A stretch of DNA of 64,000 bases from an uncultured Microbacterium sp. (GTDB taxonomy: Bacteria > Actinomycetota > Actinomycetes > Actinomycetales > Microbacteriaceae): positions 54,235-118,234 of the forward strand of contig CANNEP010000001.1 of the NCBI GenBank assembly GCA_947503655.1. The letters are read 5' to 3'. A model generated the notes under the pieces. That model searched no databases. It saw only the letters and a list, made by a program, of their open reading frames with translations, and was not told the origin of the DNA. The number at the start of each line of letters is the position of its first letter. Position 1 is the stretch's first letter. Made by a program: the position numbers and the translations under genes. Below are positions 9,108 through 64,000 of this stretch, one piece after another.

Positions 9108-9171
9108 TGATACTCCTCTGTGGTCATAAGCTGGCGTGCCCCGGCAGGTTGCGTGGCACGCCAGCAACGCC

Positions 9172-9420
9172 TTACTCCTGGTTGGAGGCGATGTAGTTGA
9201 CTGCGTCAGCAACCGTCTTGAGGTTCTTGACCTCGTCGTCCGGAATCTTGACGCCGAACTTCTCTTCTGCGTTGACAACGATCGTCATCATCGAGATCGA
9301 GTCGATGTCGAGGTCGTCGGTGAATGACTTCTCAAGAGCGACCTCGCTACCGTCGATGCCGGTCTCGTCGATGATGAGCTCGGTCAGGCCCTCAAGGACC
9401 TCGTCGTTCGTGAATGCCAT
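9172..9420 (-). CDS. acpP: Acyl carrier protein
   Basis: 82-residue acidic carrier of growing acyl chains. The phosphopantetheine attachment Ser lies in DDLDIDSISMM; the canonical DSL is DSI here. Helix pattern and length are those of ACP. GAGGAGAAACACC precedes the ATG. It sits between fabH (48 bases upstream) and fabF, as in other actinobacteria. Confidence 0.96.
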   Translation of the reverse strand: MAFTNDEVLEGLTELIIDETGIDGSEVALEKSFTDDLDIDSISMMTIVVNAEEKFGVKIPDDEVKNLKTVADAVNYIASNQE

Positions 9421-9467
9421 GGTGTTTCTCCTCTGATTAGGTTGGCTGTGAAAAGTCTAGGGGTGCC

Positions 9468-10469
9468 TTACGGCAGGACAACGACCTGCGCGCCGAAAAC
9501 GAGACCAGCGCCGAAGCCGATCTGCAGGGCGAGGCCACCGCTGAGTTCCGGGTGCTCTTCGAGCAGACGGTGTGCGGCAAGCGGAACCGAAGCTGCCGAC
9601 GTGTTGCCTGTGGTCTCGATGTCGCGTGCGATCGCGACGGTCTCCGGCAGCTTCAGCTGCTTGGCGAACTCGTCGATGATGCGCATGTTGGCCTGATGGG
9701 GGATGAATGCCGCGAGGTCTTTCGCGTCGATGCCGGCGACTTCGAGCGCCTTCTTGGCAACCTTGGCCATTTCCCACACTGCCCAGCGGAAGACCGTCTG
9801 GCCCTCCTGGCGCAGCGTCGGCCACTCGGCTTCGCCGTCGCGGTACTCAACGAGCGTGTGGTTCATGCCCACGGCGTCAGCCTTCGAACCGTCGGAGCCC
9901 CACACGGTGGGGGAGATGCCGGGGAAGTCGCTCGGGCCGACAACGGCAGCACCCGCTCCGTCGCCCAGCAGGAACGAGATCGAGCGATCGGTCGGGTCAA
10001 CGATGTCGCTGAGCTTTTCAGCGCCAATGACGACGGCGTACTTCGCCGCACCAGCACGGATGAGGGCATCGGCCTGCGCTACGGCATAGGCGAAGCCCGC
10101 GCACGCAGCGTTGCTGTCATACGCAGCGGCCGGGTTGGCGCCGATGCGATCCGCAACCACAGCAGCCATCGACGGCGTCTGCTGCACGTTGCTGACGGTG
10201 CCGACGATCACTAAGTCAATGTCAGCGGGGTTGACGCCGCTCTTTTCGACAGCTTCACGAGCGGCCTCCGATGCGAGGTCGAGCGCGGAGGTTGTGGCAA
10301 CGGCGCGCGTGCGCGTGATGATGCCAGTGCGCTGGCGGATCCACTCGTCGCTCGAGTCGATCGGGCCGATCAGGTCGTCGTTGGGAACAGCGACCTCGCC
10401 ACGGGCCGCGCCATATGCGTAGATTCGAGTGAATTCGGGGCCCTTGGCCTGGTTCAAGGTCACAGTCAT
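9468..10469 (-). CDS. fabH: Beta-ketoacyl-ACP synthase III
   Basis: Starts fatty-acid chains by condensing acyl-CoA with malonyl-ACP. The 333-residue protein has the active-site Cys in DSNAACAGFAYAV, the His in FIPHQANMRIID and the Asn in ETTGNTSAASVP. Its ATG overlaps the fabD stop by four bases, so translation is likely coupled. Actinobacterial FabH usually prefers branched or short acyl-CoA primers, though substrate choice cannot be read here. Confidence 0.96.
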   Translation of the reverse strand: MTVTLNQAKGPEFTRIYAYGAARGEVAVPNDDLIGPIDSSDEWIRQRTGIITRTRAVATTSALDLASEAAREAVEKSGVNPADIDLVIVGTVSNVQQTPSMAAVVADRIGANPAAAYDSNAACAGFAYAVAQADALIRAGAAKYAVVIGAEKLSDIVDPTDRSISFLLGDGAGAAVVGPSDFPGISPTVWGSDGSKADAVGMNHTLVEYRDGEAEWPTLRQEGQTVFRWAVWEMAKVAKKALEVAGIDAKDLAAFIPHQANMRIIDEFAKQLKLPETVAIARDIETTGNTSAASVPLAAHRLLEEHPELSGGLALQIGFGAGLVFGAQVVVLP

Positions 10470-12694: not shown

Positions 12695-15421
12695 TTAGCT
12701 CTCGCCGCCTGCGTTGCCGCTGGTTCCGGCGTTCACGTTCAGCAGGTCGTACTTGTCGATTGCCTGCTTCGCGAGCGAACGGTCAACGACGCCGTCTTCG
12801 GCGAGAGAGAGGAGCGTGCGAACCACGATCGAGGGGCCGTCGATCTTGAAGAAGCGACGAGCCGCAGCGCGCGTGTCGGAGAAGCCGAAGCCGTCAGCAC
12901 CGAGCGATGCGAAGCGGTTCGGAACCCACTGGCGAATCTGGTCTTGCACGGCGTGCATGTAGTCGCTGACAGCCGTGACGGGACCTTCGGCACCGCGGAG
13001 CTTCTCGGTGATGTACGCGGTGCGCGGCTCTTCGTCGGGGTGGAGGAAGTTGTGCTCGTCGGCGGTGAGGCCGTCCTTGCGCAGCTCGTTCCAGCTCGTG
13101 ACCGACCAAATGTCAGCCACAACACCCCAGTCGTCCTTCAGTAGCTGCTGAGCTTCGTAAGCCCAGCCCAGGCCAACGCCGGATGCGAGGATCTGAGCGC
13201 GCGGGCCCTCACCCTCACCGGTTGAGACCTTGTGGATGCCCTTGACGATGCCCTCGACGTCTACGTTCTCCGGCTCAGCGGGCTGAACGATCGGCTCGTT
13301 GTAAAGGGTGATGTAGTACATCACGTCAGGGTTCGGGTGGTTGCCACCGTACATCTGGTCAAGACCAGCCTGAACGATGTGCGCGAGCTCGTAGCCGTAT
13401 GCCGGGTCGTACGAAACCGTTGCCGGGTTCGTCGATGCGAGCAGGTGCGAGTGGCCGTCAGCGTGCTGCAGACCCTCACCGGTCAGCGTCGTGCGACCGG
13501 CGGTCGCACCCATCACGAAACCGCGTGCCATCTGGTCACCGGCAGCCCACTGCGCGTCACCGGTGCGCTGGAAGCCGAACATCGAGTAGAAGACGTAAAC
13601 CGGAATCAGTGGCTCGCCGTGCGTCGAGTACGAGGTTCCGAGTCCGGTGAACGCCGCAACGGCGCCAGCCTCGTTGATACCCACGTGAACGATCTGACCC
13701 TGCGGGCTCTCCTTGTACGCAAGGAGCAGTTCGCGGTCGACCGACGTGTAGTTCTGGCCGTGCGGGTTATAGATCTTGGCGGTGGGGAAGTAGGCGTCCA
13801 TACCGAAGGTACGGGCCTCGTCCGGGATGATCGGAACGATGCGCTTACCGATTTCCTTGTCGCGCAGCATATCCTTGAGCAGACGCGCAAAGGCCATCGT
13901 GGTGGCAACTTCTTGCGTGCCCGAGCCCTTCTTGACCTGCTTGTACATGTCGTCGCCCGGCAGGTTCAGGCCCACGTGCGTCGTGCGACGCTCGGGTAGG
14001 AAGCCGCCGAGAGCCTTGCGGCGCTCGAGCATGTACTGGATCGTCTCGTCACCGGTACCGGGGTTGTAGTACGGCGGCTGGTACGGGTTCTCTTCGAGCT
14101 GTGCATCGGTAATCGGGATGTGCAGTTCGTCGCGGAAGCCCTTGAGATCTTCCAGCGTCATCTTCTTCATCTGGTGGGTCGCGTTGCGGCCCTCGAAGTG
14201 CGAACCGAGACCGTAGCCCTTAACCGTCTTCGCAAGGATGACCGTCGGCTGACCCTTGTGAGCCATTGCAGCCTTGTAGGCGGCGTAGACCTTGCGGTAG
14301 TCGTGGCCACCGCGCTTGAGGCCCCAGATCTGGTCGTCGGTGTAGTCCTTGACCATCGCGGCGGTGCGCTCGTCGCGACCGAAGAAGTGCTCGCGCACGA
14401 AGGCGCCCGACTCTGCCTTGTAGGTCTGGTAGTCACCGTCGGGGGTGACGTTCATGAGGTTGAGCAGCGCGCCGTCGGTGTCGACGTCGAGCAGCGAGTC
14501 CCACTCGCGGCCCCAGACGACCTTGATGACGTTCCAGCCCGCGCCACGGAAGAAGCTCTCGAGCTCCTGGATGATCTTGCCGTTGCCGCGCACTGGGCCG
14601 TCAAGACGCTGCAGGTTGCAGTTAACGACGAACGTGAGGTTGTCGAGACCTTCGTTGGCAGCAACCTGAAGCTGACCGCGCGATTCGACCTCGTCCATTT
14701 CGCCATCGCCGAGGAAGGCCCACACGTGCGAGTCGCTGGCGTCCTTGATGCCGCGGTTCGTGAGGTACTTGTTCGTCATGGCCTGGTAGATCGCGTTGAT
14801 CGGGCCGAGACCCATCGACACGGTCGGGAACTGCCAGTAGTCCGGCATCAGACGCGGGTGCGGGTACGACGGCAGCGCGTTGGGGGCGGCCGACTTCTCC
14901 TGACGGAACCCGTCGAGCTGCGCCTCTGAGAGACGACCCTCGAGGAACGAGCGGGCGTAGATACCGGGGGAGGCGTGACCCTGAATGAAGATCTGGTCGC
15001 CACCCGACGGGTGGTCTTGGCCACGGAAGAAGTGGTTGAAACCAACTTCGTACAGCGACGCGCTCGATGCATAGGTGGAGATATGGCCACCAACACCGAT
15101 GCCCGGGCGCTGTGCGCGGTGCACCGTCAGCGCAGCGTTCCAGCGGGTCCAGGCGCGGTAGCGGCGCTCAACTTCTTCTTCACCGGGGAACTCAGGTTCG
15201 TTCTCCGATGCGATCGTGTTGATGTAGTCGGTCGTCGGAACCATGGGCACACCAAGGTGCAGTTCTCGCGACTTCGACAGCAGGCTGAGCATGATCTCGC
15301 GACCACGCTGCGGACCCTTAGCGTCGACGAGCTGGTTGAGGGACTCTTGCCACTCACCCGTCTCCTCAGGATCGCTGTCGAGGGGTTCTTGGGAGTACGG
15401 ATCCTGGTCGTGAACAGTCAC
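12695..15421 (-). CDS. aceE: Pyruvate dehydrogenase E1 component, homodimeric type
   Basis: 908-residue thiamine-diphosphate enzyme that decarboxylates pyruvate in the pyruvate dehydrogenase complex. The ThDP motif is [12 protein letters not shown] ending in [14 protein letters not shown]. The remaining E1 blocks, such as [11 protein letters not shown] and the C-terminal [18 protein letters not shown], are intact. The GTG start at 15419-15421 follows GAAAGG. Upstream, 291 bases separate it from tRNA-Val and must contain the promoter of the aceE-fasR-fab run. E2 and E3 are not in the window. Confidence 0.96.
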
Positions 15422-15712
15422 CGGGCGACCTTTCGTCGTTCTGGCAGATCATGCCAAGGGCATCGGTTCGACGCGCGGGGGGCTTTGTCGGCACCACACA
15501 ACACGCGTAGTCCACAGCCTACTCATAAATGGGGGTGTACGGGCAGGATCGGACATCGGTTTTATTGTCTTAGTTCGTCGCACGGGCGTGTTTGGCTGAT
15601 CATGGGGGATTTGTGACGCCGTAATGGAACCATCGTGCGGGTTTGATGCGAGGTTTTGCGTTGCCGATGGTGCAGAGCACGCGATTTCACCCGCTAGGAT
15701 GGAATGACACCA

Positions 15713-15788
15713 GGGCCTTTAGCTCAGCTGGTAGAGCGCCACGTTTACACCGTGGATGTCGTCGGTTCGATCCCGGCAGGGCCCACCA
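15713..15788 (+). tRNA. tRNA-Val (anticodon TAC), prophage attachment site
   Basis: Complete cloverleaf: acceptor GGGCCTT pairs with AGGGCCC, anticodon loop TTTACAC, T-loop TTCGATC, and CCA encoded at 15786-15788. Its 3' half (15748-15788) is attL of the prophage, so the functional tRNA is now partly phage-derived. The sequence is intact, and integration therefore does not destroy the gene. Confidence 0.96.
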
Positions 15789-16044
15789 AGGGAGTCCCGT
15801 CATCGTGCGGGACTCTTCCTGTTTCTAGCCATTCAAACGGTACGCCCGTCGCGAGTGCCCAGAGTCGCATGTTTGCGCGGCTCGGCACGCGGTGTCCGTT
15901 CTCTGCCGCTGAGATAGTGCCACGCGCCATTGACGTGCGCTCGGCAAACTCGCGCTGCTCGTAGCCGGCGCTCTCGCGCGCCTTCCGCAAACGGTCTGCA
16001 ATCGTCCACACCGGAATGCGCCCCGGCTCTAGTTGCATGCTCAT
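15745..16044 (-). CDS. Prophage immunity repressor, XRE type, with attL inside its 3' end
   Basis: 99-residue helix-turn-helix protein (IADRLRKARESAGYEQREFAERTSMARGTI region, roughly residues 14-45), the expected lysogeny repressor. It is divergent from the early genes across an operator-like region. Its last 13 codons (VGPAGIEPTTSTV) are read from the antisense strand of tRNA-Val, and its TAA stop overlaps the tRNA anticodon. In the circular phage the frame would instead run on into phage DNA now at attR, adding 17 residues (KARRLAPIISLTAARVA). I chose the ATG at 16042-16044; a GTG at 16066-16068 would add eight residues. See findings for the switch model. Confidence 0.85.
   Translation of the reverse strand: MSMQLEPGRIPVWTIADRLRKARESAGYEQREFAERTSMARGTISAAENGHRVPSRANMRLWALATGVPFEWLETGRVPHDDGTPLVGPAGIEPTTSTV
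15748..15788 (+). other. attL
   Basis: 41 bp running from the anticodon stem to CCA of tRNA-Val, repeated at 31392-31432 with two differences. The identical blocks are CACCGTGGATGTC, TCGGTTCGATCCCGG and AGGGCCCACCA. The two differing bases (15761 G, 15777 C) pair with each other in the T-stem. Confidence 0.92.
15792..15815 (+). terminator. Phage-borne terminator for tRNA-Val
   Basis: Eight-base stem GAGTCCCG / CGGGACTC with an eight-base loop, followed by TTCCTGTTT, starting four bases past the tRNA. It lies within, and antisense to, the repressor coding region. It would replace the host terminator that integration moved to 31438. Confidence 0.6.
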
Positions 16045-16128
16045 GTGTCCCACGTTAGACCAAGACACGCAAAAGAATCTAGCGACTCAGGTTAGACACA
16101 GGAACATTTTCGTGTCAGAGTTAGACCT
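16045..16128. promoter_or_regulatory. Divergent promoter and operator region of the prophage switch
   Basis: Three direct copies of GTTAGAC lie at 16054, 16091 and 16120. Inverted GTGTC/GACAC pairs lie at 16045-16049 with 16064-16068, and at 16095-16099 with 16112-16116. Placement between the leftward repressor and the rightward early genes makes these the likely repressor-binding sites. Confidence 0.6.
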
Positions 16129-16311
16129 ATGTTCAATCCTGATCTTCTGACTAGCCGCGATGTCGCGGCACGTCTGCGCACGAACACGCGTCAGGTAGCG
16201 CGCCTCGTGCAGTCAGGCCGGCTTGCACCCTATGCGAAAGCCCCCGGCGCGCGTGGTGCATATTTGTTCACCGTCGAGGCGGTATCCGCGCTGGAGGATG
16301 AACTCTCATGA
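16129..16311 (+). CDS. Helix-turn-helix protein, Xis/Cro-like
   Basis: 60-residue protein with a MerR/excisionase-type winged helix: LLTSRDVAARLRTNTRQVARLVQSGRL, then RGAYLFTVEAVSALE. As the first rightward gene after the operator region it may act as excisionase or as an early anti-repressor. There is no clear Shine-Dalgarno sequence, so a leaderless message is possible. Its last four bases overlap the next gene (ATGA). Confidence 0.75.
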   Translation: MFNPDLLTSRDVAARLRTNTRQVARLVQSGRLAPYAKAPGARGAYLFTVEAVSALEDELS

Positions 16312-16889
16312 GCGTTGAAGCTCTGTCGATCGCGCTGCATCACTCGAAGGCGACGGGCGCAGCAAAGCTCGTTCTCATCGGGATCGCGAACCATGACGGC
16401 GACGGAGGCGCGTGGCCAAGCGTGGCGACACTCGCGAAGTACGCCGGCGTGACATCCCGCAACGTGCAGAAGGCGATCGACAAGCTGACCGAGCTGGGGG
16501 AGATTCAGCGCTTCATCCAGAGCGGTGGCGATCACCGCGTGCCCGACCATCGTCGCCCGAATCGGTACACGTTCATGCTTGAGTGCCCGACCTGGTGTGA
16601 CCGATCGAGCCAGCATCGTGATCGCAATCGTCCAACCGAACTGGCGTTATCCACAGGGGTGTCGGCAGCGACACCCGGTGTCGGTAGCGACAGGGGAGGG
16701 GTGTCGGTAGCGACACCCAAACCATCCCTTAACCATCCCAATCCAAGACTTAAAAAAGAACCTTCTGTCAGTAACGTGCGCGCGAGCGCACGCGCAACAG
16801 CGATCTGCGGCGATCCAGTCAACGAGTTTGGAACCTGCCTCTACGCGTGCTCGACAGAATTCAAGATGCGACAGGAGCAGAACCAATGA
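16308..16889 (+). CDS. Helix-turn-helix replication-type protein
   Basis: 193 residues. The N-terminal winged helix (GAAKLVLIGIANHDGDGGAWPSVATLAKYAGVTSRNVQKAIDKLTELGEI) is the form found in phage replication initiators and DnaD-like proteins. It is followed by NRYTFML and a Ser/Thr/Pro/Gly-rich linker encoded by three near-identical 18-bp palindromes (16658-16717). Such repeats inside an initiator gene often mark the replication origin, as in lambda O. The C-terminal 50 residues match nothing I recognise. A role in replication is inferred. Confidence 0.7.
   Translation: MSVEALSIALHHSKATGAAKLVLIGIANHDGDGGAWPSVATLAKYAGVTSRNVQKAIDKLTELGEIQRFIQSGGDHRVPDHRRPNRYTFMLECPTWCDRSSQHRDRNRPTELALSTGVSAATPGVGSDRGGVSVATPKPSLNHPNPRLKKEPSVSNVRASARATAICGDPVNEFGTCLYACSTEFKMRQEQNQ
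16658..16717. repeat. Three 18-bp palindromic iterons, putative phage origin
   Basis: Copies at 16658-16675, 16677-16694 and 16700-16717, based on GGTGTCGGTAGCGACACC. Copies 1 and 3 are complete palindromes and copy 2 differs in its last bases. They code for repeated GVSVATP-like stretches of the overlapping protein. Their GTGTC/GACAC arms resemble those of the repressor operator region. Confidence 0.7.
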
Positions 16890-17206
16890 CCTGGAACGCC
16901 ATGCTGGAGAACGAAGATGAGAACGGCCTCACAGACCGCATCGCACTCAGCAACGAACTATCGAACCTCTCAGAGCGATACGCCCACGAAGCCACCCAAT
17001 GGTCGCTACCCGAAGCGAAAGACGCGCTACTCCACGCCGCCCGACTACTCGCCGACCAATCACGCGCAGCACTCCACTCAACCCGACTCGACGTGCTCAC
17101 CGCATTCGCCGAAGCCGCCGTGATCCTCATCGCCAACGTCGTCGGAACCCGCCGCTTCTTCCACGTCATCCTCACCCCCCCCAATGGACGTGGTGACCGT
17201 GACTGA
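16886..17206 (+). CDS. Hypothetical phage protein
   Basis: 106 residues, mostly helical, starting MTWNAMLENEDENGLTDRI and ending in a weakly hydrophobic stretch (FAEAAVILIANVVG). No family recognised. The ATG overlaps the stop of the previous gene and follows ACAGGAGC, so it belongs to the same early operon. The upstream in-frame start at 16847 is rejected because it would overlap the previous gene more deeply and has no ribosome site. Confidence 0.6.
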   Translation: MTWNAMLENEDENGLTDRIALSNELSNLSERYAHEATQWSLPEAKDALLHAARLLADQSRAALHSTRLDVLTAFAEAAVILIANVVGTRRFFHVILTPPNGRGDRD

Positions 17207-17294
17207 AACACTCACCATCGGCTTCTGGCTACCCGTGGCACTGATCCTCTGGCCACTCGCGTTCCACACACTGTTCGAGAAGAAAGACCGCTAA
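17184..17294 (+). CDS. Small phage membrane protein
   Basis: 36 residues, MDVVTVTETL then one hydrophobic helix (IGFWLPVALILWPLAFHTLF) and a basic end EKKDR. Overlaps both neighbours: it starts within the previous gene and its TAA shares a base with the next ATG. Too short for a family call; the tight packing supports it being real. Confidence 0.5.
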   Translation: MDVVTVTETLTIGFWLPVALILWPLAFHTLFEKKDR

Positions 17295-40197: not shown

Positions 40198-40554
40198 GAA
40201 TGGGTCGGCCAGACGGTCGCGTTGCGGGCTACCGCACCGAGGAACGTCCGGGCTCCACAGGGCAGGGCGGTGGGTAACACCCACCCGGAGTAATCCGCGA
40301 GATAGTGCCACAGAGAGTAGACCGCCGAGCGTACTCGGTAAGGGTGAAAGGGTGGTGTAAGAGACCACCGGGGTCATGGTGACATGACCCGCAAGGTAAA
40401 CCTCGTCCGGAGCAAGGCCAGACAGGGGATGTTGACGCGGCTCGCCGAGTCCCCGGGTAGGCTGCTGGAGCGCTACGGCAACGTCGCGCCGAGAGAGATG
40501 GCCGTCAGAGGGAGCAATCCCCGAACAGAACCCGGCGTATCGGCCGACCCATTC
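40198..40554 (+). ncRNA. rnpB: RNase P RNA, bacterial class A
   Basis: Ends pair as GAATGGGTCGGCC / GGCCGACCCATTC. Conserved cores are present: GAGGAACGTCCGGGCTCCAC near the 5' end, AGGGCAGGG, GGGTGAAAGGGTG, and ACAGAACCCGGCGTA near the 3' end. Ends are approximate to a few bases. The ribozyme matures tRNA 5' ends. It lies between the symporter terminator and pxpA. Confidence 0.95.
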
Positions 40555-40588
40555 CCTTACTTCCTCGGGAGCGTGCCAGGGTAGAGGT

Positions 40589-55854: not shown

Positions 55855-56154
55855 ATGATGACTATGCCAACGAAGTACAGTGAGGAATTCAAGCGTGACG
55901 CTGTCGCGCTCGTGGAGTCCGGCCTCACGCAGAAAACCGTGTGTAAAGATCTCGGGATCTCGAAGTCAGCTCTCGCCGCGTGGATTCAAGACGCCAGATT
56001 CACGTCGTATGGGATGACCCCGTCAAAAGACCCTGACGAGCAGCGGGAGATGCACCAAGCGCTCAAACGAATTCGTGAGCTCGAGATGGAAAACGAGGTC
56101 CTCAGGCGCGCGGCAGCGTATCTCTCACAGGTGCACATCACGCCCCCAAAATAG
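55855..56154 (+). CDS. IS3 transposase OrfA
   Basis: 99 residues with helix-turn-helix KYSEEFKRDAVALVESGLTQKTVCKDLGISKSALAAWI and a C-terminal leucine zipper (LKRIRELEMENEVLRRAAAYL). Binds the element's ends. GGAAGG precedes the ATG. The TAG shares one base with the GTG of orfB. Confidence 0.9.
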   Translation: MMTMPTKYSEEFKRDAVALVESGLTQKTVCKDLGISKSALAAWIQDARFTSYGMTPSKDPDEQREMHQALKRIRELEMENEVLRRAAAYLSQVHITPPK

Positions 56155-57035
56155 TGTTCCCGCTCGTCCGTGAGATGGCTGCGACAGGCGCCCGGGTTCG
56201 GGTGCCTGTCGCAGTGGCGTGCAGGGTGCTCGGCTTCAGTGAACAGGCGTACTACCAATGGTTGAAACAGCCCGTGTCGGCGCGTGAGGCTGAAGAGCGG
56301 CATCTGATCGGGTTGCTGCGTGACCTACACGAGGAAGATCCCGAGGGCGGGTACCGAATCCTCGCTGATGACCTCCACGACCTTGGCTATGAGATCTCGG
56401 AGCGGCGGGTGTGGCGTCTGTGTAAGATCGCTGGCCTCCAGTCGGTGATTGCCAAGCGCAAGCGCCGATACCGACGCGCTGGGGCACCCGTGGGTGATGA
56501 TCTCGTTAAGCGCGAGTTCACTGCTGAACGGCTCGATCAGAAATGGTTGGTGGACATCACGGAGCATTGGGCGGGTGAAGGTCGCCTGTACGTGTGTGCG
56601 TTCAAAGACGTGTGTTCGAACCGGATCGTGGGGTACGCCATCGATAAGCGCATGAAAGCATCACTTGCAGTGAGGGCGCTCGAGAACGCGATGATGCAGC
56701 GCGGCTACCCGACAGGCGTCATCGTGCATTCTGATCGAGGAGGTCAATTTCGAAGCAGGAGCTTCCAACACGCGCTCAAACGATCTGGCCTGCGGGGCTC
56801 GATGGGGCGAGTGGGCGCGTGTGGAGATAACGCGGCGATGGAATCGTTCTTCAGTTTGTTGCAGAAGAACGTGCTCGATCGAAAGCCGTGGGGCACACGT
56901 GAGGAGCTCAGGCTCGCGATCGTGCACTGGATCGAGGCGCGGTATCACCGCAAACGTCGGCAGCGCCGGCTGGGGAAGCTGACACCGGTCGAGTTCGAGA
57001 CCATAATGATGGATGCCGTCGCTTTGGCGGCATAA
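56154..57035 (+). CDS. IS3 transposase OrfB (DDE integrase)
   Basis: 293 residues with catalytic D134 (WLVDITEH), D194 (VIVHSDRGGQF) and E230 (GDNAAMESFFSLLQKN), the D-D-35-E layout. Full length, so the element may still be active. It can start at GTG (56154) or be joined to OrfA by frameshifting at the CCCCCAAAA run before the orfA stop. Confidence 0.92.
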   Translation: MFPLVREMAATGARVRVPVAVACRVLGFSEQAYYQWLKQPVSAREAEERHLIGLLRDLHEEDPEGGYRILADDLHDLGYEISERRVWRLCKIAGLQSVIAKRKRRYRRAGAPVGDDLVKREFTAERLDQKWLVDITEHWAGEGRLYVCAFKDVCSNRIVGYAIDKRMKASLAVRALENAMMQRGYPTGVIVHSDRGGQFRSRSFQHALKRSGLRGSMGRVGACGDNAAMESFFSLLQKNVLDRKPWGTREELRLAIVHWIEARYHRKRRQRRLGKLTPVEFETIMMDAVALAA

Positions 57036-57186
57036 ACCCCGGACTCAAGCGAACCTTCAGCAGACCCTCAATTGGAAACCGACGACTCGCACAGCGACCG
57101 GACCGAATGAAGGGGGCGGCCCACACGGGAACAGGACATCGCCGTCAGGGCCAGACGAGTCTCGAACAAGAGGTCCCTGCGTAACT

Positions 57187-57879
57187 TCAACGGCCAGACG
57201 GGAACCGGAACAGTCCGCCCGTAAGCCGATCCATCTCCTCGTCGATTTTCTTTACGATGGAATTCGGGTCCCTCGCCCCTGCTTCGAAGGCAACGTCAAG
57301 GGCACCCGCTATCGCCAAACTCCGTACGGCGCATACGACGAACGCGAAGAGCAGAGATCGGGTCGGAGTCAGCACTCTGAGGTACGGCAGCGCCTCCGGG
57401 TCGATCTCCACCTCGACGCCATCCGCCTTGTACTGCTCCAGCTGACGCACGACCTTGAGCTGTTCATCCGCAATCCTGTAGATCGCCGTGCGCGTGGAGT
57501 CATCGGTGAGGCCCACCATCGTCTTCACCTGGTCCACCTCGATGCTGAAAAGCAGCTCGTGCGCACTCTTGTTTCGCAGCCGGTTGAAGCTCTTCAATGC
57601 GCGAGCGAGCGAGACGTCGGCGGCGCCGGTCGCCTCGGCCAACGCGAGTTTGTGTTCGAACCGCGCGTTCGCCCAGTCAATTGCGTCGGGGCGTTCCAGT
57701 TTGGATCGCGCTGCGTACTCAAGGACGGCCTCGACCCACAAGTGTCCCCGCAGCAACACCCCCATGTCATCGGCGTCCCGGAGCGCGTCCACCAGATCAG
57801 CGAAATGAACGTTCTTCAGGTCAGCGTTCCTAATACCCATGTGTCGAACATAGAGTGCAACGAAACTCGACCACGCCAC
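57187..57879 (-). CDS. HEPN-domain protein, putative ribonuclease effector
   Basis: 230 residues. The helical N-terminal part ADDMGVLLRGHLWVEAVLEY ... ALKSFNRLRNKSAHEL matches HEPN domains, and R102-NKSA-H107 is an intact R-x4-H catalytic motif of HEPN ribonucleases. The C-terminal 100 residues are helical with a hydrophobic SLLFAFVVCAVRSLAIAGAL stretch. Last gene of the leftward operon, 12 bases after the previous stop. I infer an RNA-cutting effector whose action is controlled by the ATPase. GTG at 57879 is used; ATG at 57840 would drop 13 residues. Confidence 0.75.
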   Translation of the reverse strand: MAWSSFVALYVRHMGIRNADLKNVHFADLVDALRDADDMGVLLRGHLWVEAVLEYAARSKLERPDAIDWANARFEHKLALAEATGAADVSLARALKSFNRLRNKSAHELLFSIEVDQVKTMVGLTDDSTRTAIYRIADEQLKVVRQLEQYKADGVEVEIDPEALPYLRVLTPTRSLLFAFVVCAVRSLAIAGALDVAFEAGARDPNSIVKKIDEEMDRLTGGLFRFPSGR

Positions 57880-57891
57880 CCAAAGAAGTGG

Positions 57892-58884
57892 CTATCTTCC
57901 GAGTACTGCCGGGGCTGGCGGCACTGCTTCTCGGACGAAGTCGAGTTCAAGGATGTACTCATGGACGGCCGCGACGCCTTTCGTAGTCTCGCGATCGTAC
58001 CTTTCCGCGAAGGGGACGAGGAAGCTCGCATTGCGCGCAATTCCCTCACACCAGTAGTACCAAGCGAAGCCCAATACGTGGGGTTTCGCTCCGACGGCAC
58101 TGAGGTATAGGTGGTCGAGTTCGCCCAGTAAGTCCACTTTGGAGGAGAGCTCGTGGGCGGTGGCGAACGGATCGTTCGCCGGCGCAAAGATGTGTGAGCC
58201 CGGCCGATAGGAGCGGATGGAGTTGCTGGAATTGGCCAGCATGAGCATGCTCTCCTGATACATGTGCGGCTGAAGCCCGGGGAGACCAAGCAGAATCACA
58301 TGCTCGGCATTCGGCTTGTCTTCGAGCACGGCCGTGACAAGGCTATGGTCGTATCCCGCTCCTACGATCAGCGCGTCGCGAGGGCTCGGCTGGTTCGAAT
58401 GAGCGCCCTCCATGCCGGGGACCAGACCCACCCTTTCCACCGGGCCTCGCGTGAAGGTGGTCCGTTCACCCAGCTTGTACGAATCAGGGTCCGAGTAGAA
58501 GACCGTGGCCTTCGAGACCCCCGCCGTCTTCAACGCGAAAGGCAACATGACGATGTGGAGACGCATCATGCCGGTGATGTCAATGGCGATGGACTTGTCC
58601 TGGAGCGAACCAGACGCTTTCAGTTCGTGGAGCACCTGCGCCCACGACTCTGCCGGGCTTGAACTGCGGGAGGCGTGAACGATCTCCCCGTCAGGAAGTT
58701 CATCAGCGACGTAACCGTACTCGTCGTGAACCAGCCACACCTTTCTCGATGCCTGCACAGCATCCGCCAAGGCGTGGACTCGCGCAGAGTCGTTCAAAGC
58801 CGCGAGGTACAGGTCGTAGTGACGGGTGCGGACCTCTTCGTGATCAAGACGGTTTCGCTTGAAAGCTGCGTATTCGATGTCCAT
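57892..58884 (-). CDS. Uncharacterised Rossmann-like protein of the defence-like operon
   Basis: 330 residues, no known family. Distinct motifs are IDITGMMR (101-108), FYSDPDSY (129-136), a glycine-rich strand-turn ALIVGAGYDHSLV (171-183) that looks like a Rossmann nucleotide-binding loop, LLGLPGLQPHMYQE (198-211), and a C-terminal KPHVLGFAWYYW and FAERYDRETTKGV. Two nucleotide-binding-like halves are suggested. A sensor or nucleotide-modifying role is possible. Its ATG overlaps the ATPase stop (TGATG), so the two are coupled. Confidence 0.8.
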   Translation of the reverse strand: MDIEYAAFKRNRLDHEEVRTRHYDLYLAALNDSARVHALADAVQASRKVWLVHDEYGYVADELPDGEIVHASRSSSPAESWAQVLHELKASGSLQDKSIAIDITGMMRLHIVMLPFALKTAGVSKATVFYSDPDSYKLGERTTFTRGPVERVGLVPGMEGAHSNQPSPRDALIVGAGYDHSLVTAVLEDKPNAEHVILLGLPGLQPHMYQESMLMLANSSNSIRSYRPGSHIFAPANDPFATAHELSSKVDLLGELDHLYLSAVGAKPHVLGFAWYYWCEGIARNASFLVPFAERYDRETTKGVAAVHEYILELDFVREAVPPAPAVLGR

Positions 58885-60905
58885 CAAAACAGCAGGTCCT
58901 TGGTGTCCGTAATGATCCGGAAGGGAGCATTCAACGAGACTTCGAGGGCCTCCCGTACCTGCTGGAAGGCAAGATCCTCGACCTTCGGGTTGAAGATCGC
59001 TTCGAAAGTCGCCCTATCCAGGGTCGCGTCACCGCGGCGTCCCGGCCTCAGCCCCCACATAGGTGTGAGCATCGGATGGAGTTGAAACTTCCGATGCCGC
59101 GCGCCATGATTTCTGGCCGATCGCCCGCCGCGCACTTCGATAAGCAGCCCGTGGCTCACACAACGCTCAAGAACGGCGAGGGCGCCCGGTGAAACCTTGG
59201 TCATACTCGTGGAGAACGTTGCGACGTCTATCTCGCTCGGCTTGTTCGCGTATCGGATTGAGCGCAGGTACTGTCCGAGCCGCCGGATGGCGATCTCGCA
59301 CTCTTCGCCCTCCGAGCCGAGCGGCTTCGCATCCGACAGGTACCAACTGGAGGCTTCAAGAACGCCCTCGCTGAGCGCACGCTCGGATATCGGTCCCGAG
59401 CCGCGAAACACATTCTCTCCATGGAACTGCGCCCAGTGGGAGACGTACTTCAGGGTCATGAGAAGGTTGCGAGGAAGGAAGCCGGACAGACTGACGAGCT
59501 CTGTGAAGCCGGCGTACGCTGTCTGCCTGCCTGCTTCGGAGTAAATCTGGGCGATGGCGTCGCTCTTGCGCTGCTTGAAGAAGTTGGTCAGTTCGCGGTC
59601 CTCAGATCCGTCAAGCAACGGCGTTACGAACTTGCGCGCTGCCGACGCGGTTTCGGCTGACGGTTCCTGCCCCCCGGCCCAGAGTTGGTAGAAACGCAAG
59701 AGAGCAAGCTTCTCGATGAGGGGATAGTCGGGAATACTCAGGGCATTAACGACATCGGACGCCACACCAGAGTCCTTCGCCCTCCTAACGGCATTGCGCA
59801 GACTAACCAGGTACGGCCGCTCAAGTGCGGCGTAGCGAATCAGTAGCTGATGAAGCCGCTTGGTGTGAAAGCGGTCATCGGCTTCAAACGACAGCCTGGA
59901 GATCCAGCTCGCGGATTCCTGTTCATCGAGATCGAACGCCGTGAGTCTCCTCATGATGAGCTCTCGACAGAAATTCTGGTACTCACTCGGGTCGCTGGCG
60001 TATGCGGAGTCAATCGGGTAGAGCTCGTACTCGCTTCCCTTCTTGTTAACCTCTCCGGCGCTGAGCGTCTTGTGCGTCCGTATTCCCCAGCTCCGACCGC
60101 CCACGAGGAACGTTGAGGGTGCCTCCTTCTCTCGGATGAGGGTATTGAAGTAGACCTGCTGGTCCTCGGTTAGGTTCTCGTACTCATCGGCGAGGAACGT
60201 GATGGTCACGTTCTCGAACCCGGGTAGCGTGGAAACTGACTTCGCGGCCGAAAAGATGAGTTCTCCAGGATTCGATCTCACCTGTACATCGAGACGCCCC
60301 GTGTGCGCGGCGTTGTTTACGGCCCAATCGATCTCGCGCCGAAGCTGCGTGAGGTACTCCAAGATCGCGGTCAACGGCCTGGCGACCTCACCGATGCCGG
60401 ATGCGGGAGTCTGCAGTGCTTGGGCGACAGCGATGTATACCTTCGACACGTCCTCGTCGTGCCAGTGCTCGGACTCGTTCACGTCGGCGATAGTCGCAAT
60501 GAGCAACTCTGTGATCCAGATATCCATGTAGTACGCGAACGTCGTCGCCCACCGCTCCTCAGACTGCCCCTTCCCCCGGAAGCGACTCCCGTTGAGTCCC
60601 CCGCACCGGAAGTAGATCCCGATGTATCCGTCGGCCCGCACCTGACTTAGAGGACGTTCGTGCCGCGTCTTCTGCAACGGGTACGAGTAGTGACGCAGGA
60701 GGTGTGTGCGCCCGCCGCCCTTAAGCCCCGTCAAGAATTGAGGCATCGCGCTGGCAGGGTCGACAATGGATCGGTCCCGGCCACCGAAGGTGACGTAGGT
60801 CCGCTCGATCTGGGGGTCATTCAGGTCCACGGCCTTCGTGACGTCGAATGGGCTCCGCACTAGCTGTTCGGCTCCTTCGGGTAACGGCGAAACATCGGGG
60901 TCCAT
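58884..60905 (-). CDS. ORC/CDC6-type AAA+ ATPase
   Basis: 673 residues. Walker A reads GLKGGGRTH (60-68): the invariant Lys is Arg66. Walker B is TFLADEYENL (D239, E240), and GGRSWGIRTH (268-277) follows in the place of a sensor strand. A long helical middle ends in a winged-helix-like C-terminus (VSPGALAVLERCVSHGLLIEVRGG). This is the layout of ORC/CDC6-family STAND-like ATPases found in anti-phage islands. Ribosome site AGGAGG nine bases before the ATG lies inside the PRTase gene and supports the start despite a 46-base overlap. Confidence 0.85.
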   Translation of the reverse strand: MDPDVSPLPEGAEQLVRSPFDVTKAVDLNDPQIERTYVTFGGRDRSIVDPASAMPQFLTGLKGGGRTHLLRHYSYPLQKTRHERPLSQVRADGYIGIYFRCGGLNGSRFRGKGQSEERWATTFAYYMDIWITELLIATIADVNESEHWHDEDVSKVYIAVAQALQTPASGIGEVARPLTAILEYLTQLRREIDWAVNNAAHTGRLDVQVRSNPGELIFSAAKSVSTLPGFENVTITFLADEYENLTEDQQVYFNTLIREKEAPSTFLVGGRSWGIRTHKTLSAGEVNKKGSEYELYPIDSAYASDPSEYQNFCRELIMRRLTAFDLDEQESASWISRLSFEADDRFHTKRLHQLLIRYAALERPYLVSLRNAVRRAKDSGVASDVVNALSIPDYPLIEKLALLRFYQLWAGGQEPSAETASAARKFVTPLLDGSEDRELTNFFKQRKSDAIAQIYSEAGRQTAYAGFTELVSLSGFLPRNLLMTLKYVSHWAQFHGENVFRGSGPISERALSEGVLEASSWYLSDAKPLGSEGEECEIAIRRLGQYLRSIRYANKPSEIDVATFSTSMTKVSPGALAVLERCVSHGLLIEVRGGRSARNHGARHRKFQLHPMLTPMWGLRPGRRGDATLDRATFEAIFNPKVEDLAFQQVREALEVSLNAPFRIITDTKDLLF

Positions 60906-61843
60906 GGAACGTACGCCTCCTGCACCCAGAAGATCGGCAAGGTGTGATCAGGGACGTTGTGATGTAGGCCCAGCATCAGCCCCCCGTCGCCGTAGCCCAT
61001 CGCGTTGCCGGGGGCGAGATCGCCGCCGTAACGTCTTGCGACGGCTTCAGCGACTTCGCGGCTGATTCCCTCAGGCGGCGCAGCGTATGCGTGCGATTCT
61101 TCGCTGAACGCAACCTGGGACGCGTTGAGTTCGTGGACTGCGGCGGCATGGTCAAAGCCGAGCTGTCGGACTTTTGCCATCCCTCTGGGATCCGCGAATA
61201 GGGTGAGGTACCAGACCTCAATAACCTGCGCACTGAGTTGGGCAGCATCACGGAGGTGGTTGATGAAGGCCACGTTGTGTTCCGCCGCTTGCCTCCCAGT
61301 ACCAACAACGTCGTCGATGAAGACGAGCCGCTGTACATCAGGGTCAGCAATGCGGAATCCTCCATCCTCACGCGACGTGGTGAGCAACTCGTAAGGGTTG
61401 GGGAAGAGTTCTTTCCGGAGGCGGTTCTCTTGTCGAAAATAGTAGAGAAGGTGGGTGCCGCTCTCGGCGGGATTCCCAACTCCGAGAAATCGCGTCCGGG
61501 AAAGGGCATCGTCGAAGGCGCCTTGCAGTAGAGAGGGATCAGCGCTTCCGCCTGCCTTGTCCCGGAGTTCCTGGATCACCTCGTAGCGGAACAAGTCCCG
61601 ATAGAGGGCTTTCAGAAGCTCCCGCAACTCTCGAAGACCGAAGTACGTGAAGTGTGAGAGCAGGTGTACTGCGTGCAGACGCTCAACCTCTTCGGGAATA
61701 CCGTCTGTCTTCCCCGTGAAGTTCTCAAGCCAGCGGTTCACATCCTCCTGTCCACCGTTCCCCTCCCAGATGCTGTCAGACAGCAACTTGATCCGCTTCC
61801 GGATCGACGCTTCGTCCTCGTCCTTCCCACCGAGTTCAATCAT
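60860..61843 (-). CDS. PRTase-CE-like phosphoribosyltransferase-fold protein
   Basis: 327 residues. LVFIDDVVGTGRQA (173-186) is the PRPP-binding loop of phosphoribosyltransferases. The N-terminal YFGLRELRELLKALYRDLFRY and the later MGYGDGGLMLGLHHNVPDHTLPIFWVQ with WTPMFRRY match the PRTase domain reported in conflict-system gene clusters (PRTase-CE). No normal purine or pyrimidine salvage motif is seen. Overlaps the methylase by eight bases and the ATPase by 46. It may modify a nucleotide or RNA end. Confidence 0.8.
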   Translation of the reverse strand: MIELGGKDEDEASIRKRIKLLSDSIWEGNGGQEDVNRWLENFTGKTDGIPEEVERLHAVHLLSHFTYFGLRELRELLKALYRDLFRYEVIQELRDKAGGSADPSLLQGAFDDALSRTRFLGVGNPAESGTHLLYYFRQENRLRKELFPNPYELLTTSREDGGFRIADPDVQRLVFIDDVVGTGRQAAEHNVAFINHLRDAAQLSAQVIEVWYLTLFADPRGMAKVRQLGFDHAAAVHELNASQVAFSEESHAYAAPPEGISREVAEAVARRYGGDLAPGNAMGYGDGGLMLGLHHNVPDHTLPIFWVQEAYVPWTPMFRRYPKEPNS

Positions 61844-63176
61844 GCGGGGTCATCTCAAAGATCTCGATGTACTCGGCGGGAGTCGGGGCCCCGTTTTTCC
61901 GAGACGTCAGAAGCGACCGTCCACGAATTGGGTCACGCAGGGACACCACACGTCGATATCCCAAGGACTGAACGATGTCCGCGAGATGCTGACTTGTCCT
62001 CAGCGCACCCCCTGCGACGTGGTTGTCACCGGACACGAGCGCGATCCTCCTCATACCCACGCTCCGCGCGTTCATGAAGATCCGTTGCATGTCCGCGAAG
62101 TAAGCCACGTAGATGGCGCCTCTCCGCGCATCTCTCTCCGCGATGCTTGTCAATGCCTGTCTGAGCCGCGAGCTCGACACACTCGACACGCTCAACTCCA
62201 GGTCCTGGGGCGAGAGATGCTCTCGTCCGATGCTGTTGTGCTCGAGGTGGACCGTCCTCCCTTTCGGGGCGTGGCCCAACCATGCCGCCTCCAAACTGGT
62301 GCTACGCACATACTTCTGAGCCGCCCCGTACGGAGGGCTCGTGAGGAGTAGCGTTCTAGATGCCTGCTCAGCGCTCGGCCACAATGTCAGGTCCCGGGCG
62401 TCTCCGGCACGGACGTCGGCAACAGGTCTCCGGGGCGGCAGAGTTCCCAGCTTCGCGACGATAGACGCGCTCTCCTGGGACCACTGGCTCCAGACGTCAG
62501 TGGAGGACGCTGTCGCGTTGCGGGCACTCTTCACGGGCACAGGGATACGAGGGTCCGTAGTAGCCATGCGCCTTGCTGTGAGCGCGAGACAAAGCTGCAC
62601 GAGATCCCGGTCCTGCTCGTCTCTTTCTGCCGCGACAGCAGCCAACCGCCCGAGAGCTGACATAGCTCCCTCCGAATACCAGCGACGAAGCAGCGGCGAC
62701 GGGTCGACAGGACGTCGGCTGCGTTTGGCAGCGACCAATGCCTCCTCCAGAACATCTGCCGCATGCTCATATGCACCTTGAGCCACCTTCACTCGGCTCA
62801 CCAGCGCTGCGACGGGGTTCTGTTCGACACCAATAGAGGTGAATCCACGAAGTTGCGCTTCCAGCAGCACCGTTCCGGAACCAACGAACGGGTCAAACAC
62901 TGCGTCGACGTCGGCAACGACGGCCTCCGTGGACAGCAGGAAGCGGGGAATGTGCCGCAGCAGCCTCGCGGGGTAGGGGTACAACCCATGCGTGTACTCG
63001 CTGGCAGGAAGGGGGCCGACCAGCTCACGAAAGCTGATGTCGACGGGCTCGCCCATGTACCTGCGCACAAGCGCTGCGTACGCCCGCGAGTAGTGCTTCG
63101 ACGTCGGAGGCCTCGTAGGGTGGTGCGCATCGTCAGGAACCACGTGGACCGAAATCGGCTCTGTCGCGCTGACCAT
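61836..63176 (-). CDS. DNA methylase of the defence-like operon
   Basis: 446 residues. YTHGLYPYPARLLRHIP (61-77) recalls the THGxHxYPAK segment of site-specific methylases, DPFVGSGTVLLEA (95-107) is the AdoMet-binding motif I, and TSPPYGAAQKYV (279-290) is catalytic motif IV. SPPY points to amino (N4-cytosine or N6-adenine) methylation. Motif I comes before IV with a wide gap. No restriction endonuclease accompanies it. GGGAGG precedes the ATG. First gene of the leftward operon. Confidence 0.82.
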   Translation of the reverse strand: MVSATEPISVHVVPDDAHHPTRPPTSKHYSRAYAALVRRYMGEPVDISFRELVGPLPASEYTHGLYPYPARLLRHIPRFLLSTEAVVADVDAVFDPFVGSGTVLLEAQLRGFTSIGVEQNPVAALVSRVKVAQGAYEHAADVLEEALVAAKRSRRPVDPSPLLRRWYSEGAMSALGRLAAVAAERDEQDRDLVQLCLALTARRMATTDPRIPVPVKSARNATASSTDVWSQWSQESASIVAKLGTLPPRRPVADVRAGDARDLTLWPSAEQASRTLLLTSPPYGAAQKYVRSTSLEAAWLGHAPKGRTVHLEHNSIGREHLSPQDLELSVSSVSSSRLRQALTSIAERDARRGAIYVAYFADMQRIFMNARSVGMRRIALVSGDNHVAGGALRTSQHLADIVQSLGYRRVVSLRDPIRGRSLLTSRKNGAPTPAEYIEIFEMTPHD

Positions 63177-63345
63177 CGTTCGACCTCCCTTCGACCCAGT
63201 CTCCGCTCATGGTACACTGCGAGTCGTGCCTCGCCGCGCCGCGCCGCGCCGCCCCGAAGGCTGACATTGGGGGGGTACCTTAGGGTATGGTTTGAGGCTC
63301 ACAAACGTTAGACTGATAGTCGACGCCACGTCTGGAGGGATTCTG
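63177..63345. promoter_or_regulatory. Divergent promoter region of the defence-like island
   Basis: The 169-bp gap between the leftward operon and the rightward pair must hold both promoters. It contains a short GCC-rich microsatellite (CCGCGCCGCGCCGCGCCG near 63234) and the partly symmetric GGTACCTTAGGGTATGGT (63276-63293). No protein-coding frame is supported. Confidence 0.5.
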
Positions 63346-63585
63346 ATGACCATCGCATCACCGACCGTAGAATCACGCGCACAGCAGCTCCGGAACCTCA
63401 TTCAGGAGCTCGTTGAGGTCGTCAGAGACAATGGCGGAAAGATGCCCCTCAGCGACGCCGTCCCGTCTGTCGCGAACCGTACAGGGCTGCCTCTCTCAGA
63501 GGTTCCCTACATCGTGAACTCCGCTGTCGCCGACTGCCGAATCACCGCTGACCTTCGTTCTGGAGTTCTTGAACTAGTATACTGA
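63346..63585 (+). CDS. Small protein beside the dGTPase-like gene
   Basis: 79 residues, helical, with a winged-helix-like end (MPLSDAVPSVANRTGLPLSEVPYIVNSAVADCRITADLRSGVLELVY). A clear GGAGG precedes the ATG at 63346. It ends five bases before the GTG of the dGTPase-like gene, so the two are probably one operon. It could be a regulator or partner; no family recognised. Confidence 0.7.
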   Translation: MTIASPTVESRAQQLRNLIQELVEVVRDNGGKMPLSDAVPSVANRTGLPLSEVPYIVNSAVADCRITADLRSGVLELVY

Positions 63586-63589
63586 GCCG

Positions 63590-64000
63590 GTGACCGCAGT
63601 CCGTCCCGCCTCACCCCTGCAACCGCTCGCTGATGGTTCAGTGGTCGTTCCCGCGCGCGAGCAGCAACGACACAATCGGGGCGAAGAGTCACCGCACGGG
63701 GAGATGGACTACCGTACTCCGGCGGAACGCGATCGTGGACGCCTCGGGTATTCGGAGTATCTGCGGCGCCTCGCCGGGGTCACGCAAGTTGTGTCTCCGG
63801 AACTCGCCTCGGCGCAAATGCACAGTCGTTCCTCGCACACGCACAAGGTGGCGATGATCGCGCGCGAGATCGCGGATCACATCGTGCGGTCGCTCCCACA
63901 CAACGAGAAGTGGAACGACGTCGTTATCACGAACGGCGGCCTCGACATCGCGGCGTGCGAGGCCGCTGGTCTCGCGCACGACATCGGTCACCCGCCGTTC
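63590..64000 (+). CDS. HD-domain dGTPase-like hydrolase (partial, runs off window)
   Basis: 137 codons are visible from GTG 63590 to the window end. After a 37-residue leader, MDYRTPAERDRGRLGYSEYLRRLAGVTQVV resembles the Dgt N-terminus, then SRSSHTHKVAMIA with His83 and GLAHDIGHPPF with His130-Asp131, the HD metal-site motifs of dNTP triphosphohydrolases. It differs clearly from the housekeeping dgt at 189. Such enzymes deplete dNTPs against phage; here its place beside a defence-like operon suggests that role. The C-terminal part is unseen. Confidence 0.82.
   Translation, partial: MTAVRPASPLQPLADGSVVVPAREQQRHNRGEESPHGEMDYRTPAERDRGRLGYSEYLRRLAGVTQVVSPELASAQMHSRSSHTHKVAMIAREIADHIVRSLPHNEKWNDVVITNGGLDIAACEAAGLAHDIGHPPF

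Follow-up and report, generated by a model that had tools for sequence, protein, structure and literature searches.

The window analysed here, a stretch of 64,000 nucleotides from an uncultured Microbacterium sp., carries five leftward genes, which its ORF list and translations place exactly where the original prediction had located them. In the direction of transcription they encode an amino-methyltransferase (core gene 1; positions 61836..63176, minus strand, as for the next four; 446 aa) with motif I DPF-G-SGT and motif IV TSPPY, a PRTase-CE phosphoribosyltransferase (core gene 2; 60860..61843, 327 aa) with the PRPP loop FIDDVVGTGRQ, an ORC/CDC6-like ATPase (core gene 3; 58884..60905, 673 aa) with P-loop GGGRTH and Walker B LADE, a CARF6-clade protein (core gene 4; 57892..58884, 330 aa from its ATG, with a TTG at 58887) and a HEPN-like protein, a local accessory (57187..57879, 230 aa from a GTG start), with the motif R102-x4-H107. 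The genes overlap by exactly 8, 46 and 1 bases, followed by a 12-base gap, and these coordinates bear out the single operon proposed earlier; the reported motifs (SPPY, FIDDVVGTGRQ, LADE, HEPN R-x4-H, and IDITGMMR and VGAGYDH of the fourth protein) are likewise all present. The 12-base gap between the CARF and HEPN genes requires the GTG start of the latter; the next ATG, 13 codons in, would widen it to 51 bases.

Upstream, the start of a divergent gene for a dNTPase of the dGTPase-type HD family (63590..64000, plus strand) runs off the window and lies outside the conserved core. Its full 518-aa copy in a near-identical strain (locus L039) matches the PADLOC dGTPase model (1.5e-70); a search of the 80 remaining loci (E 1e-3) gave no homologue. 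Directly downstream of the operon are transposase genes, IS3-like by eye (55855..57035, plus strand; ORFs of 99 and 293 aa). The stretch that is 99% identical to L039 stops at 57124, and a different transposase-like ORF (by eye) lies downstream there.

Among 81 related loci, 70 contain the methylase, PRTase, ORC-like and CARF genes in the same order and on one strand. Nine of the remaining 11 are cut by contig ends, one (L041) is without the methylase and one (L108) has a C5 DNA methylase. The distances of the PRTase, ORC-like and CARF proteins co-vary (r 0.81-0.83), and to a lesser degree also with those of the methylase (r 0.63-0.67). The system is patchily distributed (2 of 148 relatives). 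In four distant plasmid loci, from seven such records, a CARF6 protein is always present, and an N6/Eco57I-type methylase lies nearby in three. Among the plasmid records, CP064699 was left out, having the same tblastn values as CP064696. The system tree comprises 65 of the 81 loci, with L002, L033, L037, L038, L092 and the incomplete loci left out, and the protein alignments are subsets of 73 (CARF), 50 (methylase), 54 (PRTase) and 53 (ORC-like) rows.

The fifth gene behaves differently. The HEPN gene occurs at only one of the 81 loci, that of the near-identical strain (99%), and searches of 148 relatives and 396 genomes of the phylum, which would miss more distant HEPN genes, each returned a single genome, the window's own; the plasmid search gave one partial weak match. 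We therefore rejected the five genes as one system. The locus is a widespread four-gene bacterial system with a locally added RNase-like gene, so that the unit of exactly five genes originally put forward shrinks to four. The refuting condition named at the outset, that the genes occur separately in related genomes, holds for the HEPN gene. The HEPN assignment itself is weaker than the others: the motif is present (RNKSAH), but the profile matches are all below cut-off, the best being FlaG (0.0088), followed among HEPN families by Csm6 HEPN (0.014) and DUF4145 (0.037), a HEPN-like family. Since the relevant family matches fall below the cut-off, the assignment rests mainly on the motif. An integral role for the protein, as the RNase effector triggered by the ATPase or the CARF protein in a five-gene system, would fit its position 12 bp from the CARF gene on the same strand, with the frame open in two strains, and an annotated DUF4145 gene 1.7 kb downstream of the S. 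meliloti copy (L032). More generally, HEPN domains have been linked to no fewer than four families of CARF proteins (PMC4012209). The other loci nevertheless keep the core without a HEPN gene of this type, and we regard an integral effector as quite unlikely.

The methylase was originally proposed to mark self DNA, and its matches agree with a DNA methylase. The window protein matches PADLOC MTase_II (4.9e-22), and SPPY is invariant across the 50 aligned rows. Between motifs I and IV identity is low, at 0.28, whereas around the motifs it is 0.51 and 0.49, the pattern that a target-recognition region should show. The alternative of an RNA methylase (Trm14/RsmD-like), and hence of an RNA-directed system, draws on the UPF0020/RMKL profile, which matches all 50 family members, and on weak PDB matches to tRNA methylases. 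N6_N4_Mtase, however, also matches all 50, with a better best E-value (3.7e-18 versus 9.6e-11), and the best PDB matches are DNA methylases. Moreover, in the distant branches the slot is occupied by C5-cytosine or N6/Eco57I DNA methylases, which makes DNA the very probable substrate, and we consider the RNA-directed alternative very improbable. From these similarities core gene 1 is predicted to be a DNA self-marking enzyme. Clustering of the neighbours from the 81 loci yielded no further core gene, and no conserved cognate endonuclease; the one match to a nicking-endonuclease model comes from a gene of L108.

Core genes 2 and 3 both match full-length Pfam profiles, PRTase-CE (PF24390, 1.9e-51) and ORC-CDC6-like (PF24389, 1.2e-103), in line with the conflict-system families originally named; these labels denote families and state no function. 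The adjacent accessions suggest that the curators built both together. The PRTase also matches PADLOC PRTase_III-A (3.9e-23). The DD of its PRPP loop is invariant in 54 aligned rows, as is the Walker B DE of the ATPase in 53, and PDB profile searches with both proteins gave nothing usable. In the 396 phylum genomes PF24389 has matches in 66, 5 of them over the cut-off. In the P-loop of the window ATPase, Arg replaces the Lys of most relatives (9 of the 53 aligned rows have R); this substitution and the lack of an endonuclease in the conserved core run against a defence reading.

The fourth protein, described earlier as an unrecognised Rossmann-like protein, proved recognisable: it matches PADLOC PDLC01914 (CARF6) at 3.6e-85 over residues 4-315 of 331, as well as five further CARF6 models. 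A D-x-T-G motif is found in 67 of the 69 CARF rows listed from the alignment of 73. The CARF6 assignment, which points to a predicted nucleotide sensor, rests on these models and the motif; Pfam CARF families matched none of the 73 members, and a PDB search found no homologue. The two halves of the protein align over 109 columns (P 0.022, suggestive only), and it possibly consists of two CARF-like halves. In the distant branches the proteins best match PDLC01913, 01920 or 01922. A search for CARF-kinase-AAA fusions with PDLC01925 gave 11 of the 396 genomes, all matches lying within the first 200 positions of the model only.

CARF proteins bind cyclic oligoadenylate, produced by Cas10, in type III systems, and the protein could be a trans-acting receptor of such a signal, supplied by type III CRISPR or CBASS synthases from another locus of the same cell, a reading in keeping with the PRTase_III-A match. 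We searched 51 host genomes (G000, G257 and those of 49 of 70 loci) for the synthases. The Cas10 palm profile PF22335 matches in 18 of them, 8 over the cut-off, yet it also exceeds the cut-off in E. coli, and the three top hits retrieved (L115-L117) all contain the GGEEF diguanylate-cyclase motif. Csm1/Cas10 (TIGR02578) was above the cut-off in none of the 51, with 7 weak matches (control, 3 of 14), which led us to reject a working dependence on type III CRISPR. In the window's genome none of the Cas10 palm, Csm1 and SMODS profiles has a match, and no CBASS-type CD-NTase is among the five proteins. A trans-acting receptor is accordingly highly improbable in our estimation. The clade is of interest as one held in a fixed operon by hosts without Csm1/Cas10 above the cut-off, CARF proteins being otherwise known as receptors of Cas10-made cyclic oligoadenylate.

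A further clue to the nucleotides involved comes from the neighbours of the relatives, among which are enzymes of the dUTP-dUMP-dTMP pathway. The thymidylate synthase ThyX is linked to the system at 18 of the 81 loci (including L038, near-identical to L033, where it is split in two frames), and ThyA at 3; the ThyA genes of L066 and L047, at distances of 3 kb and 2.4 kb, were not counted as linked. A decayed ThyX remnant in L046 was counted apart. A dUTPase of the PF00692 type is linked at 2 loci, in L045 next to ThyX, and in one distant plasmid locus a dUTPase_2 gene (PF08761) lies 2 bp before the PRTase. ThyX and ThyA are not known to be homologous, nor are the two dUTPase families. On the system tree the linked synthase requires 10 changes, 9 of them forced by starred branches, with gain and loss not separable; its distribution is clustered (none of 500 shuffles gave so low a value), and the operon ThyX sequences do not form one clade. 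Of the 65 tree loci 47 have no linked synthase, and neither a linked synthase nor a dUTPase was found in the window or L039. All 13 synthase-linked genomes searched, from 21 loci (L032-L034, L036-L038, L059 and L102 lay outside this search), contain a further synthase match, one of them only partial. These enzymes hint that the system works through thymine or uracil nucleotides, and they add to the idea, already plausible, that the PRTase and the Rossmann-like CARF protein make or read a nucleotide signal. Two synthase and two dUTPase families linked to one system form a rare genomic pointer to the biochemistry, which is directly testable.

The same enzymes could be read in another manner, as feeding replication in a mobile-element maintenance module that has no part in defence, with the ORC-like protein as initiator and the methylase marking replicated DNA. 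Eight plasmid records carry the system, integrase-like genes (two clusters named by eye) lie within reach of 12 loci, and the ORC homology and the dTMP enzymes would suit such a role. Chromosomal copies also occur, however, in L065 (by record title) and G257 (one 3.4 Mb contig). The methylases belong to different families, the hosts already have a thymidylate synthase, and the PRTase and CARF proteins have no evident replication role. In addition, of ten neighbours picked by hand, 7 have matches to PADLOC models, including Dsr1, AriB, TIR, Aga and dGTPase, although this sample has no background rate. On balance we find a replication module unlikely.

Judged from gene content and sequence, the four-gene system is probably anti-phage. 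Our preferred reading, to which we give somewhat less than an even chance in the form proposed below, is a mobile four-gene CARF6-clade conflict system with a local HEPN add-on; that it serves in defence, what triggers it, which ligand it uses and how its effector acts chemically are what we infer. The methylase would mark host DNA, and the ORC/CDC6-like ATPase, by itself or together with its CARF partner, would survey DNA, the trigger being foreign DNA that is unmarked or in replication. The PRTase would make or consume a nucleotide read by the CARF protein, and the response would disturb the deoxyuridine/thymidine nucleotide pool, such that phage DNA synthesis stops. The extra thymidylate synthase or dUTPase of the relatives may provide self-protection or supply the regulatory nucleotide. 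At the window locus, which has no linked thymidylate gene, the HEPN-like protein may act as an RNase and provide a second effector. The module is best read as a methylation-marked, nucleotide-regulated defence module stressing the dU/dT pool. More tentatively, and in our view doubtfully, it could represent a new immunity class. An ORC-type ATPase gated by methylation would drive the PRTase and CARF6 proteins, and this pair would act on deoxyuridine/thymidine nucleotides or use them for signalling, for example by swamping or draining the dUTP-dUMP-dTMP node or through a thymidine-based messenger. ThyX, ThyA and two dUTPase families would have been captured specifically to give self-resistance or to supply the messenger.

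The original prediction knew of no characterised system with exactly these five genes, and none of the PADLOC or NCBIfam protein models matched names such a system. The CARF6 models of PADLOC name single proteins. Among the literature searched, neither the four-gene system nor its thymidylate link came up, though the operon may be tabulated in CARF-classification or type III accessory-gene surveys; Makarova et al. reportedly surveyed and classified the CARF superfamily in 2020. Like restriction-modification systems, the operon appears to include a DNA methylase, judged by its family and its substitution by others, but its conserved core has no restriction nuclease. Of the PADLOC mad models for methylation-associated defence, mad2 matches distant-branch methylases (2e-20, 1.9e-7) and mad8 one ATPase weakly (2.3e-4); MADS differs in gene content. 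In the dprA-PRTase and retron PRTase systems, as described in PMC9122126, the PRTase is a probable anti-phage effector and DprA a possible sensor of phage DNA; a PRTase is shared by description, and the partners differ. A system validated in the DefensePredictor study places a thymidylate synthase domain in a defence context and shares that enzyme, the terms 'CARF' and 'ORC' being absent from the text (PMC13092281). A precedent for nucleotide regulation is Clover (the dGTPase CloA and CloB), whose immunity is controlled by the level of dTTP and by a thymidine nucleotide (PMC12265719); neither 'CARF' nor 'phosphoribosyl' appears in the text of that paper. A dGTPase-type gene also lies divergently next door in the window, yet the dNTPase and NTase pair of Clover is absent from the core, the dNTPase being found beside the window operon and L039 only and no NTase among the window's five proteins. 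If the proposed working is true, immune regulation by thymidine nucleotides extends beyond Clover.

The five leftward genes at 57187..63176 (-) lie where the original prediction placed them, and their spacing was reproduced: three overlaps, of 8, 46 and 1 bases, and one 12-base gap. In family searches, the products of the first four genes match MTase_II (4.9e-22), PRTase-CE (1.9e-51), ORC-CDC6-like (1.2e-103) and the CARF6 clade (3.6e-85), respectively; they are called MTase, PRTase, ORC and CARF here. The fifth protein (gene at 57187-57879) yields only weak HEPN matches. The fourth, previously described as an unrecognised Rossmann-like protein, can no longer be called unrecognised, as six PADLOC CARF6 models match it, and it is the most informative part of the operon. 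None of the 73 members of its family matched the CARF families of Pfam, and no solved homologue of it was found. The ORC protein of the window matches the CARF6-kinase-AAA model weakly (2.5e-4).

The window shares 98.95% identity over 6.9 kb with Microbacterium bovistercoris NZ_QUAB01000043.1 (locus L039). The two strains are 99% identical up to the 3' junction of the operon, where by eye the transposase-like ORFs differ (55855-57124 in the window, L039:11764-13684). A divergent dNTPase gene lies beside the operon at 63590-64000 (+) (full copy at L039:3738-5294, matching PADLOC dGTPase at 1.5e-70); it may have a housekeeping role or be a second defence gene. A 97-aa ORF at 63292-63585 (+) stops 4 bases before its start and may share its transcript. 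Elsewhere, the window encodes a bacterial class A RNase P RNA at 40201-40555 (+) (296.8 bits).

The system is real and widespread, and its occurrence is patchy. The CARF6 protein occurs in two of 148 relatives, the window's own genome included, and 5 of 396 genomes of the phylum pass the ORC-CDC6-like cut-off, with a full-profile match in two (G000 and G257). A search from the CARF protein yielded 70 loci in genomes, along with 8 plasmid records and 3 viral contigs; the comparison set comprised 81 loci, including seven fetched plasmid regions and one extra locus of the same genus. The order MTase-PRTase-ORC-CARF on a single strand is found in 70 of the 81, counting three loci with a split ORC (L033, L037, L038) and two with an end-truncated MTase (L002, L092); of the remaining 11, nine are without upstream sequence, L041 is without MTase and the archaeal L108 has a different methylase. 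Median spacings of -4, -1 and -4 bases (69 loci, longest-ORF starts) suggest that the core genes are translationally coupled. According to record titles and taxonomy, the hosts include members of Actinomycetota, Pseudomonadota, Bacteroidota, Chloroflexota, Nitrospirota, Chlorobiota, Elusimicrobiota and Cloacimonadota, together with one archaeal MAG. In L037 (8037-11828) a transposase-like ORF is inserted in the ORC gene, and in L033 and L038 (near 8043-10053) this gene is broken into two frames; the adjoining CARF gene is still open in all three.

Plasmid searches with ORC (14 records) and PRTase (10 records) together returned the same eight records as the CARF query and seven more distant ones. 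Four of these seven were opened, and in all four the third position is occupied by a CARF6 protein; PRTase was found in two and ORC in three by tblastn (L154 additionally by Pfam), and the other PRTase and ORC slots hold hypothetical genes of similar size.

The HEPN gene, which had been taken as an integral part of the operon, is not conserved: among the 81 loci, 148 relatives and 396 phylum genomes it was found in this strain group alone. Genes of the TIR-TPR (L055), DUF4365/Aga (L103), DUF4435/AriB-like (L093), SIR2/Dsr1 (L033, L038) and DUF4145 (L032) types near the core look like changing defence neighbours, not core parts. A Paraburkholderia genome (L078:11025-11906) and a closely related viral-collection contig (L110:10962-11900) encode, immediately past the CARF gene, a related protein of about 300 aa, with no convincing Pfam family for the L078 copy scanned. 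A ThiL/AIRS-like protein (by eye) lies 94-97 bp upstream of MTase in L066 and L083, and in Bradyrhizobium (L034) annotated multiubiquitin, metal-binding and ThiF-type genes (14902-17239) lie near the core copy and a TIR gene (1194-2132) upstream of it.

Examination of the alignments shows SPPY kept in 50 of 50 MTase rows, DD in 54 of 54 PRTase rows and the Walker B DE in 53 of 53 ORC rows; in the ORC P-loop, Arg replaces Lys in 9 of 53 rows, the window among them. MTase identity is 0.28 from motif I to IV; around the motifs it reaches 0.51 and 0.49, and the C-terminal part has 0.36, the N-tail 0.14. The low identity between motifs I and IV, and MTase distances that track those of PRTase, ORC and CARF less closely, both fit a target-recognition region. 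Gene 1 is predicted to act on DNA because DNA methylases of other families occupy its position, which is the best support for this assignment. In L108 this is a C5-cytosine DNA methylase (6.5e-69) overlapping PRTase by 4 bp; the CARF end there shares 11 bases with an HhH-GPD gene that matches a PADLOC type II nicking endonuclease. An N6/Eco57I-type methylase adjoins the trio co-directionally in Moraxella p4 and Cupriavidus pRK1-1 and is convergent to it in Diaphorobacter. The distant Paraburkholderia locus has a PDDEXK nuclease upstream and no methylase annotated within the stretch shown.

The strongest new element is the repeated linkage of thymidylate-pathway enzymes to the core. At 18 of the 81 loci a ThyX gene (split in L038) is found no more than about 1.5 kb from the core, and L046 has in addition a decayed remnant. 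Eleven of the 18 genes are immediately upstream in the same direction, at -86 to +31 bp; one, in L077, has a 4-bp overlap with the CARF gene, one lies 194 bp past it (L091), four are convergent and one is divergent. Three Bacteroidota loci carry the classical ThyA instead, which precedes the MTase gene by 1-2 bp or overlaps it. A PF00692 dUTPase lies 9 bp past the CARF gene in L054; in L045 (4179-5537, -) a dUTPase 47% identical to it sits between ThyX and MTase, divergent from the latter, so that it and ThyX adjoin each other just upstream of the methylase on the other strand. The distant Moraxella p4 locus has a PF08761 dUTPase 2 bp before PRTase, and in L061 a PRA-PH gene overlaps MTase by 4 bp.

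On a 65-locus tree, the thymidylate synthase (TS) label changes 10 times, 9 of them forced by starred branches, a count that cannot tell gain from loss; the label is clustered, shuffled labels averaging about 16 changes and none being as low. The operon ThyX proteins do not form one clade (5 changes, 3 forced; a single clade in 0% of bootstrap trees), in a tree with several long branches whose details are unsure. Since two enzyme families are involved and the ThyX proteins are not one clade, more than one gain of a linked TS is indicated. Of the 21 loci with a linked TS, 13 fall among the 51 genomes searched, and all 13 genomes contain a further TS match elsewhere (partial only in G543), the matches having been assigned to the loci through their coordinates or the length of the contig; the linked TS is therefore an additional enzyme. 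A single ThyA, on a different contig, is present in the window's genome, which has no ThyX; homologues of four TS and dUTPase queries were absent from the window and L039.

Candidate signal sources were also surveyed. Csm1 exceeded the cut-off in none of the 51 genomes (7 weak matches; control 3/14), and no SMODS cyclase was found in the window's genome. The Cas10 palm model PF22335 passed in 8 of 51 genomes and also in E. coli, and the three hits checked were all GGEEF proteins. The two halves of the CARF6 protein can be aligned with each other (109 columns, P 0.022), and its C-terminal half bears a P-L-S/G-T-K-like motif with an invariant K268 (V-G-A-K in the window); the protein may be a double CARF, only a lead for structure prediction because a control pair of unrelated sequences gave P 0.012, over 57 columns.

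What the comparison shows is which genes make up the system and in which order, the conservation of their motifs, the replacement of gene 1 by other DNA methylases and the recurrent dTMP-pathway linkage. In the proposed mechanism the system would serve in defence: ORC would sense DNA, PRTase and CARF6 would form a nucleotide maker and reader pair, and the dU/dT pool would be affected. Published work describes ATPases of the STAND/ORC type that act as switches and sense nucleic acids (PMC8195603), PRTases with DprA or retrons as probable effectors (PMC9122126), nucleotide-making by PRTases as a proposal for Ter systems (PMC5512222), CARF as a ligand sensor, one form of which is joined in a fusion with a distinctive AAA+ ATPase (PMC4012209), and a validated thymidylate synthase domain in another defence system (PMC13092281). 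In the partial texts of the literature searched, no description of the four-gene system was found, and we file it as a variant of CARF-regulated, methylation-associated defence. In Clover, a dGTPase is activated by dTTP and restrained by p3diT (PMC12265719), a precedent for the control of immunity through thymidine nucleotides.
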